A stretch of DNA of 64,000 nucleotides from Pelagibacteraceae bacterium AG-422-D23 (lineage in GTDB: Bacteria; Pseudomonadota; Alphaproteobacteria; Pelagibacterales; Pelagibacteraceae). Under the pieces are notes generated by a model, which saw only the letters and a list, made by a program, of their open reading frames with translations, was not told the DNA's origin and ran no database searches. Shown here piece by piece: positions 6,873 through 61,923 of this stretch. The translations under genes were made by a program, and so were the position numbers. The first letter of the stretch is position 1. Each line of letters starts with the position of its first letter. The stretch lies in contig QCMQ01000003.1 of assembly GCA_003213615.1 (NCBI GenBank), positions 1 to 64,000 of the forward strand. Reading direction: 5' to 3'.

Positions 6873-7553
6873 ATGAATGGTAAAATATTTATTATTGAGG
6901 ACGAACCTTCAATAATTCAATTAGTTCAACATAATCTTGAAAAAAACGGTTTTATAGTTTCATCATCAGTAAATGGAAATGATGGTTTAAAAGAATTGAA
7001 AAAGTTTCAACCAGATTTGCTTTTATTAGATTGGATGCTGCCTGATCTTTCAGGAGTTGAAATTTGCAAAAATATTAGAAAAGACACTAATTACAATAAT
7101 TTACCTGTAATTATGTTAACGGCTAAAGGTGAAGAAGAGGATAAAATAAAAGGTTTAGATAGCGGCGTAGATGATTATTTAACTAAACCTTTTAGTTTCA
7201 ATGAACTTATGGCAAGAATTAAAGCTGTTTTAAGAAGATCTAATCCAAATACTGTATCTGATAATTTAAAGTTTGATGACTTAATGTTAGATAGAATTGA
7301 AAAAAGAGTTTTTAGAGACGATCAAGAAATTAAACTTGGGCCAACTGAGTTTAGGTTATTAGAGTTTTTTTTAACAAATCCTAAAAGAGTTTATTCTCGA
7401 GATCAAATACTAGAGAGTGTTTGGCCAAATAATGTAAATGTTGAGAGCAGAACTATAGATGTTCACATTAGAAGATTGAGACAATCAGTTAACTTAAAAA
7501 ATAAAAAAGAATTAATTAGAACAGTTAGATCTTCTGGTTATTCACTTATTTAA
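6873..7553 (+). CDS. phoB: Phosphate regulon response regulator PhoB
   Basis: OmpR-family transcription activator of the Pho regulon. The receiver domain (about residues 1-120) has the acidic pair ED at 9-10, the phosphoacceptor Asp53 in LLLDWMLPD, and the conserved Lys in TKPF. The C-terminal winged helix (about 125-226) includes the LGPTEFRLLEFF and SRTIDVHIRRLR elements typical of PhoB. It is the last gene of the locus. Its final 12 bases overlap the end of a minus-strand aquaporin gene, so transcripts from the two sides must collide or read into each other. The cognate DNA repeats are present before pstS and pstC. Confidence 0.94.
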   Translation: MNGKIFIIEDEPSIIQLVQHNLEKNGFIVSSSVNGNDGLKELKKFQPDLLLLDWMLPDLSGVEICKNIRKDTNYNNLPVIMLTAKGEEEDKIKGLDSGVDDYLTKPFSFNELMARIKAVLRRSNPNTVSDNLKFDDLMLDRIEKRVFRDDQEIKLGPTEFRLLEFFLTNPKRVYSRDQILESVWPNNVNVESRTIDVHIRRLRQSVNLKNKKELIRTVRSSGYSLI

Positions 7554-8198
7554 GAAAATCTTTTTCACAAAATACACAGCAATCAACATACCAATTAATT
7601 CAGCTACTATATAAAAAGGAGTGTTTAAATAACTTATACCAGTAAACGATTCTGTGAATGTTCTTGCTATTGCTACAGCAGGATTTGCAAAAGATGTTGA
7701 TGAAGTAAACCAATAACCAGCTGTAATATATAACCCAACAGATGCAGCTACAGTAATTTTACCTGACTTCATAGATCCAAAAATTATGATTATTAGTCCT
7801 AATGTTGCAATAATTTCTGATACAAAAATATAGATTCCATCTCTTGATTTTGTTGATAATTCAAAAATCTGATGTTCAAAAAAGAAATTTGCTAAAGCTA
7901 CACCTAGTAAACATCCAAGGATCTGAGCACAAATATAAAAGGGTAGAAGGTGTTTTTTTAACTTTCCAGTAATTGTCATAGCAATACTTACAAATGGATT
8001 GAAATGAGCCCCAGACACATCAGCAAATACTGTTATTAAAACAAACAATCCAGCTCCAGTTGCTATAGTATTTGCAATTAGCATTACTGCTGCATCATTG
8101 GTAAGATTTTCTGCCATTAAACCTGACCCAACTATGATCATTACTAGAAAGCAACTTCCAATAAATTCTGAAAGAAAATATTTATTTTTATTTTTCAT
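7542..8198 (-). CDS. Aquaglyceroporin (MIP family), probable arsenite channel
   Basis: MIP-family membrane channel of 218 residues with six helices and two half-helices. The second signature is a standard NPA (SFANPAVAIART). The first is NPF (GAHFNPFVSIAMT) rather than NPA, a change that could alter pore selectivity. The start overlaps the end of arsC by 11 bases, so they are one operon. In Sinorhizobium an aquaglyceroporin (AqpS) in an ars operon lets arsenite leave the cell down its gradient after reduction of arsenate. I infer the same role here because no arsB or acr3 pump is visible. Water or glycerol transport cannot be excluded. Confidence 0.8.
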   Translation of the reverse strand: MKNKNKYFLSEFIGSCFLVMIIVGSGLMAENLTNDAAVMLIANTIATGAGLFVLITVFADVSGAHFNPFVSIAMTITGKLKKHLLPFYICAQILGCLLGVALANFFFEHQIFELSTKSRDGIYIFVSEIIATLGLIIIIFGSMKSGKITVAASVGLYITAGYWFTSSTSFANPAVAIARTFTESFTGISYLNTPFYIVAELIGMLIAVYFVKKIFLNK

Positions 8199-59064: not shown

Positions 59065-59862
59065 TTATTTAATTTTATTTTTTTTTCTTAAATATATTTT
59101 CCCAAAAATTTTTTTAAATTCTATTTTTCCTTCAGGGTCTTCTGTATTTGGTCGCTTCCTAAAAATTGTTGAATGATTACCAAGACCTTTTTCATGTTGC
59201 GGACGTCCATTTGTGTAATAATACATTGCTATTGATTTCCGAGATATTTTATTTGGGTGATTTATTTTTTCTGGATTTCCATGATATGAATTATCCGTTG
59301 TTGAAAAAATAACTGTTTTATTAAACGTTGGAGTTATTTTTTTTTCACACTTTTTCATATCTTTATCCCATAGTTCTAAACTTCCACCAAAATCATTTTT
59401 CCAATCTTTATTTAGATAAATTAATATATTCAACCTTCTATCAAGTTTCATTGTTGGGTGCATATTAAAATCAGCATGAATATTTAAATATCCTTTTTCC
59501 TTCAATTCATGTAGTCCTCCTCCAATTAAGTAGGGGTCAGGTATTAATTTTTCCTCTACATCTGTTATATTTTGTAAAAAATTTATAAATATTTTAGAAT
59601 TTAGAAAATTTATAAAATCATTGGTTTCATTTGAGAATTTATTTGTATCATTTAAGGATAATTTTCTTTCAGCCTTATTGTCAAAATTATCTCCAATCTG
59701 CTGAATATTTTCTGGAAATTCTTCTAAAATTCTATTTAAAAAATTTTCATTAAATAAATCTTCTATTACTATATGTGGAAAAGGCTTAGAATGAATATAC
59801 TCAGAATTTTTTTGATCTCCAAAACTTTCTAAATTTTTAATTTTTTTATTTATATAACTCAT
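59065..59862 (-). CDS. Fe(II)/2-oxoglutarate-dependent oxygenase (prolyl-hydroxylase-like)
   Basis: Oxygenase of 265 residues. The iron ligands are His129-x-Asp131 (LNIHADFNMHP) and His194 (NSYHGNPEKI), with Arg208 as a likely 2-oxoglutarate contact. The beta-strand pattern RRLNILIYLNKDWKNDFGGSLELWD is that of the 2OG-FeII_Oxy_3/P4H-like family. Members in polysaccharide clusters hydroxylate sugars or linked small molecules. It ends 16 bases from the LicD-like gene (convergent) and starts 18 bases after the end of the recombinase gene on the same strand. Confidence 0.85.
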   Translation of the reverse strand: MSYINKKIKNLESFGDQKNSEYIHSKPFPHIVIEDLFNENFLNRILEEFPENIQQIGDNFDNKAERKLSLNDTNKFSNETNDFINFLNSKIFINFLQNITDVEEKLIPDPYLIGGGLHELKEKGYLNIHADFNMHPTMKLDRRLNILIYLNKDWKNDFGGSLELWDKDMKKCEKKITPTFNKTVIFSTTDNSYHGNPEKINHPNKISRKSIAMYYYTNGRPQHEKGLGNHSTIFRKRPNTEDPEGKIEFKKIFGKIYLRKKNKIK

Positions 59863-59880: not shown

Positions 59881-60834
59881 TTATATTTTAATTTTATTTA
59901 AAGCATTGTTTTTAAATAAATTTGCATCCTTAATATATCTTCTTACCATTTGTGTTGATTTGTGACCAGTCATAGACATAATGCTTCTCTCATCAGCTCC
60001 TGACTCTGCAGCTACTGTTGCAAATCCTGATCTTAGACTATGGCCTGCAAAATTTTTATTTTCGATACCTGCTAGATTTAAATATTCTTTAATTAATAAA
60101 ACTACAGATTGGTCAGTTAGTCTTTTGTCTGTTAGTGATAAACCTTTCGAAAATCTTCTAAAAATAGGTCCAGATTTAATTTGAGATATTTCTAACCATT
60201 TTTGTAAGTTTTTAACGGGACAATAAATTTCATTATTAAAGTAGGGTAGTCCTTTAATCATTCCTTCTCCGAATTGATCCGTTTTAGATTTTTTAATAAT
60301 TATTTTTAGACCCTCAGGAACGAATTCCAGATCCTCATGATCAATTGATATAAGTTCAGTTCTTCTAAAACCACCACCAAAACCAATTAAGATCATTGAC
60401 TTATCTCTTAATTTCTTTATTTCCTCAATTTTTTGACTATCTATTGCATTAATTATTAATTTTAAATGATTGACTAATATAGGTTTTTTACCTATTTGAA
60501 TGCTACCTTTAATTCTTCTTATACCCATTAAATTTTCAACAATAATTGGATGTTTTGTATCTAAATAATGGCCTTTTAGCTTATGAACCATACTAATAGA
60601 TACCAGTCTTCTTCTTAAAGTGCTTATTTTTGAATTTTTAGATAGATGAGTGATGTATAAAGAAACAATTTTTGGTTCTGATGGTAAAGATTTAAAACCG
60701 TGTTTTGTGCAAAAAGTCTCAAAATCTCTAAAATCTGATTTATATGCTCTTAAAGTATTATTTGCCTTAGAGCTTTTGAGGTTATTTAAAGTTGCCTCAT
60801 GCAGAGATTTTAGATCAGTTGTTAGTTCATTCAT
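59881..60834 (-). CDS. Tyrosine site-specific recombinase (integrase/Xer-like)
   Basis: Recombinase of 317 residues. The N-terminal SAM-like core-binding domain covers about residues 5-110. The catalytic set is complete: Arg157 (GGGFRRTELISIDHEDL), Lys182/184 in the beta hairpin (IIIKKSKTDQFG), His265-x-x-Arg268 (AGHSLRSGF), His291 (MTGHKSTQ) and Tyr300 (VRRYIK). So it should be active. It is probably XerC/D-like or an island integrase, since no phage genes or second recombinase are nearby. A dif-like inverted repeat lies 7-35 bases upstream of its ATG. Confidence 0.92.
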   Translation of the reverse strand: MNELTTDLKSLHEATLNNLKSSKANNTLRAYKSDFRDFETFCTKHGFKSLPSEPKIVSLYITHLSKNSKISTLRRRLVSISMVHKLKGHYLDTKHPIIVENLMGIRRIKGSIQIGKKPILVNHLKLIINAIDSQKIEEIKKLRDKSMILIGFGGGFRRTELISIDHEDLEFVPEGLKIIIKKSKTDQFGEGMIKGLPYFNNEIYCPVKNLQKWLEISQIKSGPIFRRFSKGLSLTDKRLTDQSVVLLIKEYLNLAGIENKNFAGHSLRSGFATVAAESGADERSIMSMTGHKSTQMVRRYIKDANLFKNNALNKIKI

Positions 60835-60837
60835 ATA

Positions 60838-60872
60838 ATTACTATTGATAACAATTAATTATCGTTAGTAAT
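60838..60872. repeat. Dif-like inverted repeat upstream of the recombinase gene
   Basis: ATTACTATTGATAA (60838-60851) and TTATCGTTAGTAAT (60859-60872) are inverted copies matching at 12 of 14 positions, separated by the 7-base CAATTAA. The inner ends read ATAA...TTAT, as in Xer/dif core sites that have two 11-base arms and a 6-8 base centre. It starts only 4 bases before the recombinase ATG. It could be the recombination core or a dimeric autoregulatory operator. Confidence 0.5.
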
Positions 60873-60908
60873 ATATCAAGAATTTTATTATGTCAAATAA
60901 AATAATTT

Positions 60909-60952: not shown

Positions 60953-61141
60953 ATGAAATATTATTTAAAGATGGGCATAGACGGAGTAATTGAACCGATA
61001 TATTTTTTAATAACGTCATTTGGTTTTGCAATATTAAGCTTTATTAATTATAGAAAATCTGGAAAAACTCTGGAAACTATTTATCTTTCAATTTTAACTG
61101 TTTTCTTTATAGTCTGCTTCATTATTTTAAATTTTTATTGA
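60953..61141 (+). CDS. Hypothetical 62-residue two-helix membrane protein
   Basis: Not recognised. A short polar N-terminus (MKYYLKMGIDG) precedes two hydrophobic helices, about residues 15-31 and 42-61, joined by a basic loop (NYRKSGKTLET). Its stop overlaps the MGMT start as TGATG, indicating co-expression. It begins in the intergenic region that holds the recombinase-associated repeats. Confidence 0.6.
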   Translation: MKYYLKMGIDGVIEPIYFLITSFGFAILSFINYRKSGKTLETIYLSILTVFFIVCFIILNFY

Positions 61142-61410
61142 TGAAAGGTACTAAATTTCAATTAAAAGTCTGGAATTACCTTAAAACTATACCAAAAGGC
61201 ACTGTTAAAACCTATAAACAGGTAGCAATAGCTATAAAAAGCCCTGAATCAGCGCGTGCTGTTGCTAATGCGTGTGGAAAAAACCCTTATGCACCCAAAA
61301 TACCCTGTCATAGAGTAATTCGGTCCGATGGAGGCCTTGGCGGATACTCAGGGAGAGGTGGAATTAAGACAAAAATGCGTTTATTGAAATCTGAAAAAGT
61401 TGATATTTAG
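61141..61410 (+). CDS. ogt: Methylated-DNA--protein-cysteine methyltransferase, catalytic domain only
   Basis: DNA-repair suicide enzyme that removes alkyl groups from O6 of guanine. The 89 residues correspond to the C-terminal catalytic domain alone. The active site is IPCHRVIRSDG with acceptor Cys56, and YKQVAIAIKSPESARAVANACGKNPYAP supplies the helix-turn-helix and Asn hinge. The acceptor Cys distinguishes it from alkyltransferase-like proteins with Trp. The usual N-terminal domain of Ogt/Ada is missing. The ATG at 61141 forms TGATG with the upstream gene; a TTG at 61138 is less likely. Confidence 0.88.
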   Translation: MKGTKFQLKVWNYLKTIPKGTVKTYKQVAIAIKSPESARAVANACGKNPYAPKIPCHRVIRSDGGLGGYSGRGGIKTKMRLLKSEKVDI

Positions 61411-61923
61411 TGGCTTTTTTACCCTATTTTATAGTCAAAAACACTTGTAAAATCAACGTTTTTTCAATATTTAAACTTATTTTAACATGAATAGCAATAT
61501 TCACCCTTCAGTTGCACTATATATCGAGATATAACAAAATAAAGCACCTCTATGGCCCTTTAAAACATATATTCTATAACTGCATTGCTCTACTTTTCAA
61601 TGATAACAAGGCTAAATTTAGTGTCAAATTTCATAGAACTTTTAAAAATTTTTGTTCCCCTACCCACTTATTAAAATAAGAATTTTGAATTTTGTGTTTA
61701 ATTTGCTAATAAAACCATTGGTATTAAACACTTTTAAATATTATGGTTTATTTTCTTTATTAATATTGCCATTTTTCCTTTATACATTTAAAATAATAGT
61801 AATTAATTGGATAATTTATATTAATTTATCTATTTATATGATAATAAAAAAAATAATAATTACAAGTATTTAAATATATATATTAAAGTATTAGATTATA
61901 TATTAGTAACTATTTATTTACTA
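61411..61923. other. 513-base gene-poor AT-rich gap
   Basis: I see no convincing gene here. The first 250 bases are moderately AT-rich and the last 260 are extremely so (about 85% A/T by eye). An inverted repeat TATATC-GA-GATATA lies at 61520-61533. A TTCCCCTA at 61655-61662 matches eight bases of the tRNA-Glu T arm. A TTG-started hydrophobic frame (61652-61873) looks like a composition artefact. It marks the boundary between the island and the core-type genes. Confidence 0.6.

Follow-up and report, generated by a model that had tools for sequence, protein, structure and literature searches.

A conserved dif-like site beside a tyrosine recombinase gene points to a single-recombinase Xer system in Pelagibacteraceae

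In a SAR11 genome of the family Pelagibacteraceae, a short inverted repeat resembling a Xer/dif core stands directly before a tyrosine recombinase gene that abuts a glycan island. Which reaction, if any, do this repeat and this recombinase carry out? Carnoy and Roten (2009; PMC2731167) described Pelagibacter ubique as lacking dif/Xer, and the absence was taken as a sign that streamlining discards the system. The word Pelagibacter does not occur in the main text of Kono et al. (2011; PMC3025954), and no description of a Xer/dif system in SAR11 was found among the top-ranked matches in the open-access literature. We analyzed a DNA stretch of 64,000 nucleotides, referred to as the window, together with related genomes, phages, and plasmids. 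The features of the locus are listed below.

59065..59862, minus strand: 2OG-Fe(II) oxygenase gene, adjoining the recombinase 3' end as first gene of the variable side (context)
59881..60834, minus strand: tyrosine recombinase, 317 aa; no other PF00589 gene was found in its genome
60838..60872, minus strand: dif-like recombination site, ATTACTAACGATAA - TTAATTG - TTATCAATAGTAAT on the gene strand; mean identity of 98% across the 92 distinct upstream regions, with one site listed per genome
60838..60851, minus strand: gene-proximal arm (right on the gene strand); NN (reverse complement) is TT in 87/92
60852..60858, minus strand: 7-bp spacer, presumed strand-exchange region, CAATTAA as numbered here and TTAATTG on the gene strand; the latter in 87/92 distinct regions
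60859..60872, minus strand: gene-distal arm (left on the gene strand); positions 8-9 variable
60891..60896, minus strand: conserved TTGACA from the upstream-region alignment, a possible -35 box, in which case the -10 would adjoin the distal arm or overlap with it
61138..61410, plus strand: O6-methylguanine methyltransferase DNA-binding domain protein, conserved side; a divergent neighbour of 91 aa occurs there in 38/44 loci (context)

The site and its recombinase

The 35-bp inverted repeat ATTACTATTGATAACAATTAATTATCGTTAGTAAT at 60838-60872 has a 14-7-14 layout with 12 of 14 arm pairs matching and with ATAA and TTAT at the inner arm ends, all of which agrees with the earlier note. That note had placed the repeat 4 bases from the start codon. 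The ATG begins at 60834 on the minus strand and three bases (60835-60837) intervene; the value of 4 is the distance to the first base of the ATG. The inverted repeat by itself is unremarkable. With arms of 14, at least 12 matches, and spacers of 5-9, the window contains 20 repeats of that quality, compared with 10.1 on average over 60 simulated first-order Markov sequences. One repeat has ATAA/TTAT inner ends, compared with a simulated mean of 0.08, and at least one such repeat appears in 8% of the simulations. Hence, a significance drawn from the repeat alone was rejected, as such repeats are common in this AT-rich window; what exceeds chance is its conservation and its co-occurrence with the recombinase.

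The recombinase matches PF00589 with a score of 72.5 bits. It possesses the complete Arg/Lys/His-Arg/His/Tyr set that had been read from the window, namely R158 (R157 is an arginine too), K184, H265, R268, H291, and Y300, and this set is identical in all 103 complete aligned orthologues. The median dN/dS over 99 orthologue pairs is 0.066, and the recombinase is under purifying selection. Its AlphaFold2 model has a mean pLDDT of 44. In one contig (G083:C8), the recombinase occurs in two pieces, 2-604 and 7528-7860, on opposite strands, which reflects an assembly chimera or a rearrangement.

We then inspected the upstream regions of orthologues, taken from whole genomes and from the best 80 of 283 confirmed contig stretches. 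The earlier note had named conservation next to orthologous recombinases as a test of its reading, and the repeat is indeed conserved there. The site precedes the gene in 110/110 upstream regions, 92 of them distinct with the window's own counted once, and differs by 0-3 mismatches from ATTACTAATGATAA-TTAATTG-TTATCAATAGTAAT. It lies 1-3 nt from the start codon in all of these regions (3 nt in 106 of them), and a split site was never found among the 110. Over the 92 distinct regions, the mean identity is 98% for the site, 80% for the preceding 35 bases, and 53% for the 25 bases before those. The variable NN of the left arm reads AT in 55 regions, AC in 21, GT in 7, TT in 7, TC in 1, and GC in 1. 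The site of Candidatus Pelagibacter ubique SCGC AAA795-D22 (L094) has zero mismatches.

To describe co-occurrence, 298 family genomes were searched twice, with the recombinase protein and with the site pattern at up to 3 mismatches, and the 113 genomes of the window's genus that are at least 90% complete were compared by hand. The site is present in all 85 genus genomes with a close orthologue (E 3e-145 or better), in none of the 15 with a divergent orthologue (E 1e-119 to 1e-129), and in none of the 13 without an orthologue. The divergent orthologues have 61-68% identity where such E-values have identities listed. Across the family, an orthologue was found in 247 and the site in 181 of the 298 genomes, 51 genomes being without orthologue. 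Among the places listed, the site adjoins the recombinase gene wherever both positions are given, and nearly every site-bearing genome has one copy among the matches listed. G210, G381, and G420 each have a second match, with 3 mismatches and located on a different contig; in G224, the match ranking after the site differs from it at 9 positions.

The recombinase is present across ten genera. Outside the window's own genus, four genomes (G241, G243, G246, and G253) carry the site, and ten tested genomes with orthologues do not. Of 11 such genomes whose orthologues have 53-70% identity, G253 alone has this site, and the sister family has it in 0/15 genomes. The core TNNGATAA-7-TTATCNNTA was looked for beside divergent orthologues and was not found; the outer arms may be read as drifting together with the recombinase in divergent genomes. 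Three genomes, G247 (99% complete), G252, and G272 (96%), have no orthologue at E 0.001 and were taken as site-less from their absence among the site-matching genomes. Conservation, co-occurrence, and the gene-adjacent position together support the earlier proposal of a Xer/dif-like core site belonging to the adjacent recombinase.

Terminus position and the single-recombinase reading

Two whole chromosomes allow the site to be placed relative to replication. In G224 (1,199,990 bp), cumulative GC skew peaks at 675,248 and the site begins at 674,662, 552 bp apart; in G012 (1,343,202 bp), the peak is at 615,773 and the site begins at 617,601, 1,828 bp apart. The T-A skew extremes of both lie within about 3.3 kb, and with the skew minimum as origin, the replichore fractions at the site are 0.481 and 0.499, respectively. 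A local GC-skew peak lies 1,503 bp from the site in G235 (240 kb read). The three genomes are related and their skew positions are non-independent. KOPS-like octamers were sought in G224 and G012, and none stands out.

Pelagibacteraceae have no genes resembling XerC and XerD of the kind present in the sister family. A PF00589 match is present in 53 of 59 genus genomes with completeness of at least 90%, in 47 of them as the only one, and is absent from 6; G000 has one PF00589 gene, and in G039 and G056, which belong to the 47, the match is a different 464-aa frame. The XerD model gives two matches in each of six sister-family genomes (6/6), with 314-325 and 244-254 bits, and its best match in Pelagibacteraceae has 66-82 bits in 8/8 genomes, with second matches of 60 bits in G245 and 23 bits in G082. 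The contrast with the 314-325 bits of the sister family counts more than the curated XerD cut-off, which was passed by no genome of either family and by 4 of 14 control genomes. The recombinase itself is below the NCBIfam equivalog cut-offs for XerD (72.7 of 329.6 bits) and XerC (64.4 of 335.15 bits). FtsK-gamma was found in 5/5 genomes, and 8 of 14 control genomes match as well.

Because the site is conserved, co-occurs strictly with the recombinase, exists in about one copy per genome, and lies at the skew-defined terminus of genomes that have FtsK-gamma but no XerC/XerD-like genes, we consider it highly likely that recombinase and site form a single-recombinase Xer/dif system resolving chromosome dimers in Pelagibacteraceae. 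FtsK would bring two sites together at the division septum, copies of the one recombinase would bind both arms of the paired sites, and strand exchange across the 7-bp spacer would turn a dimeric chromosome into two monomers. Binding, cleavage, activation by FtsK, and dimer resolution by the recombinase at this site are predicted from sequence comparison.

The proposed system resembles known Xer systems and differs from each of them. XerCD/dif likewise has a palindrome at the terminus whose inner ends are ATAA/TTAT, and FtsK-gamma in the genome, but uses two recombinases and a spacer of 6, compared with one recombinase and a spacer of 7 in SAR11. XerS/difSL of streptococci and lactococci, as described in PMC5357621, likewise has one recombinase with the site right by its gene at the terminus; XerS, however, is longer (356 aa, as against 317 aa in SAR11), and so is the central region of difSL (11 bp, as against 7 bp). 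The NCBIfam XerS model gives the SAR11 recombinase 42.3 bits with a cut-off of 267, so that it does not classify as XerS. XerH/difH of Helicobacter and Campylobacter is described in the same source as one FtsK-dependent recombinase of 354-362 aa (317 aa in SAR11) with the site near its gene, and the solved XerH chain is a distant match only (phmmer E 7e-5, residues 97-300). The nearest parallel is XerL/dif of Legionellales (PMC9765430, 2022), a lineage called dif/Xer-less in 2009 and later described with one recombinase. The catalytic Tyr of XerL is residue 387 according to that paper, hence the protein is longer than the SAR11 recombinase, with which it is compared here by description.

Upstream stretch, pelagiphage copies, and the glycan island

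The location of the site between a possible -35 box and the gene raises the question of regulation. If the repeat were the recombinase's own operator, the protein would repress its own gene, and recombination would take place elsewhere or not at all. Such a role fits the distance of 3 nt to the start codon in 106/110 regions and the conserved TTGACA just upstream, but it leaves unexplained why the site is at the replication terminus, why its spacer is invariant, why the palindrome of plasmid relatives is 53-1123 nt away from the gene, and why phage copies have no recombinase gene of the same family nearby; we therefore regard it as very unlikely. An operator is possible as a second role of the site, as the -35 to -1 stretch before it is 80% conserved, and promoter or operator function could explain part of the site conservation. 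A generic promoter scan returned 3 promoter-like sites compared with 7.8 in shuffles, and the TTGACA at 60891..60896 was not among them.

Copies of the arms occur in viral genomes. We searched IMG/VR contigs for the arms with a free spacer of 5-9 bases, and used a permuted pattern of the same composition as control. The arm pattern matches 64 contigs and the control 14; the outer AT of both arms, which is outside the pattern, is present in 51/64 and 5/14, respectively. Spacer lengths in the 64 contigs are 6 (18), 7 (30), and 8 (16), and the host spacer TTAATTG is found between intact arms in only three (L178:4147, L180:13657, and L182:1778). By hand count, 39/64 contigs have an ORF of 422-436 or 488-494 aa as first or second neighbour on one side, and the two of those ORFs that were checked are terminase, with best matches in pelagiphages. 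In 5/64 contigs, the match is inside or beside a long ORF and is probably something else. L287, L294, L302, L304, and L325 have TACTAAAGATAA-8-TTATCTTTAGTA in common, located within a very long ORF or adjoining one; this sequence seems unrelated to the other sites.

Individual phages (16, with 17 loci) were scored against shuffles. Four exceed all 30 shuffles, namely Greip (23 of 24), HTVC100P (23), HTVC035P (22), and HTVC106P (20). HTVC024P, with 19, equals its highest shuffle, and the remaining phages are at chance level, including HTVC023P, HTVC027P, and 023Pt_psg01 (parts of records) and Methylophilales phage Venkman. With terminase coordinates entered by hand and HTVC024P taken as a 20-kb part, the best or equal-best match lies at most 1.2 kb upstream of the terminase gene in 9/12 isolates, HTVC010P being a tie only. 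It lies away from that region in HTVC203P, HTVC204P, and HTVC028P, and HTVC028P, which has its own integrase (PF00589), has nothing upstream of terminase. Four copies of the arms upstream of terminase, all with non-host spacers and in pelagiphages lacking an annotated integrase, are as follows.

L243:12420-12452: arms upstream of terminase, Greip EXVC021P
L352:34319: arms upstream of terminase
L351:35829: arms upstream of terminase
L347:35375: arms upstream of terminase

The records of Greip, HTVC100P, HTVC035P, and HTVC106P contain no integrase annotation (one of 58 Greip features is outside the stretch), and Phage_integrase was not matched by any of nine CDSs selected from HTVC106P, HTVC100P, and Greip. 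Searching 1.05 Mb of phage and viral-contig DNA with a recombinase-family profile yielded no relative, a result that excludes close relatives only, as the same profile missed the annotated HTVC028P integrase. Tyrosine recombinases generally require equal overlap sequences. Host and phage sites have the arms in common while their spacers mostly differ, so we favour a role of the phage copies in a phage-with-phage reaction; L178, L180, and L182 could be candidates for integration at the chromosomal site.

That phages carry the arms would also suit a mobile-element attachment site, with the recombinase as a domesticated phage or island integrase acting only on the integration of incoming elements. 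Against this stand a recombinase that the host keeps as a single, conserved gene and that is under purifying selection, a site never split in 110 upstream regions, and a Greip-type terminase in 1/399 genus genomes, a count on which prophages at the site were rejected, and we judge such an attachment site highly improbable. The sole genus genome with a Greip-type terminase (G508:C20) carries it twice within a single contig, the two copies facing opposite ways; this may be an artefact of amplification or an intracellular phage.

We compared the neighbourhoods of 44 loci, covering 7 kb in both directions. Gene content is retained on the site side, with a 283-aa neighbour in 43/44 loci, a 299-aa neighbour in 42/44, and a 91-aa divergent neighbour in 38/44. 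The variable side is behind the 3' end of the recombinase gene, where a 705-aa gene is present in 40/44 loci and where the window has the 2OG oxygenase and glycan genes. The earlier note had suggested that the site mobilizes or phase-switches the glycan island, which does abut the recombinase gene, and an integrase gene was reported within hypervariable region 2 of HTCC1062 (Wilhelm et al. 2007); this reading was nevertheless rejected as exceedingly improbable, since the 64-kb window has no second copy of the site (next best matches, 12 mismatches of 35), nearly all genomes have one site, gene order is conserved on the site side with the variable side beyond the recombinase 3' end, the recombinase is retained across ten genera, and the site is at the terminus. 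Our guess is that the HTCC1062 integrase gene is the same recombinase. In the upstream flank, a four-gene block 3.7-6.2 kb from the gene is inverted in 6 of 38 loci, with the break not at the site. Positions 61411-61923 of the window, between the methyltransferase-like and EamA-like genes, comprise about 500 bases without a convincing gene, which is unusual for a streamlined genome.

Plasmid relatives and meaning for SAR11

The nearest non-SAR11 relatives found for the recombinase are plasmid integrases (among the best 15 of 4271 records, 13 of which were retrieved). The highest identity, 45%, is with that of Alicyclobacillus acidocaldarius pAACI01, and the other aligned plasmid integrases have 36-41%. 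Of the 13, 9 carry a GATAA-N6/7-TTATC palindrome at a distance of 53-1123 nt before the gene, with 10-14 of 14 arm positions palindromic. Of the others, L362 has a poor palindrome (8 of 14) and L365, L369, and L372 have none. Six permuted cores used as control gave 0 or 1 match each, and 11 of 14 arm matches were reached by none. Plasmid p1 of Alicyclobacillus sp. TC has a site that equals the SAR11 arms at 23/24 fixed positions. Toxin-antitoxin and ParA genes adjoin several of the plasmid integrase genes. The 18 viral records are more distant relatives, none above 30% identity and none from SAR11 phages.

The plasmid integrases of Alicyclobacillus, Paenibacillus, Sporosarcina, and others thus resemble the SAR11 recombinase over full length (35-45% identity) and in having the upstream palindrome (9/13), but they sit on plasmids, several by toxin-antitoxin/ParA genes, whereas the SAR11 module is chromosomal and at the terminus. 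We infer that plasmid integrases and palindromes form a family of plasmid-resolution modules. As the plasmid relatives have the same kind of site, the probable ancestor of the SAR11 module is a plasmid resolution module that stepped in upon the loss of XerCD/dif.

A broader scenario, in which a plasmid dimer-resolution module displaced XerCD/dif in Pelagibacteraceae and integrase-less pelagiphages exploit that module, is put forward tentatively and is rather doubtful as a whole. With the arms by the phage terminase and mostly their own spacers, the host enzyme would circularize or monomerize phage genomes, and these would stay separate from the chromosome; the copies with the host spacer (L178, L180, and L182) could integrate at the chromosomal site.

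SAR11 are among the most abundant cell types on Earth. If the single-recombinase reading is true, they would have replaced rather than discarded dimer resolution, by means of a one-recombinase module of apparently plasmid origin, and would add a further independent single-recombinase case beside XerS, XerH, and XerL. The site would then serve as a terminus marker and as an in vivo recombination site for genetics in a group that is hard to engineer, and would provide a testable link between host chromosome biology and phages.
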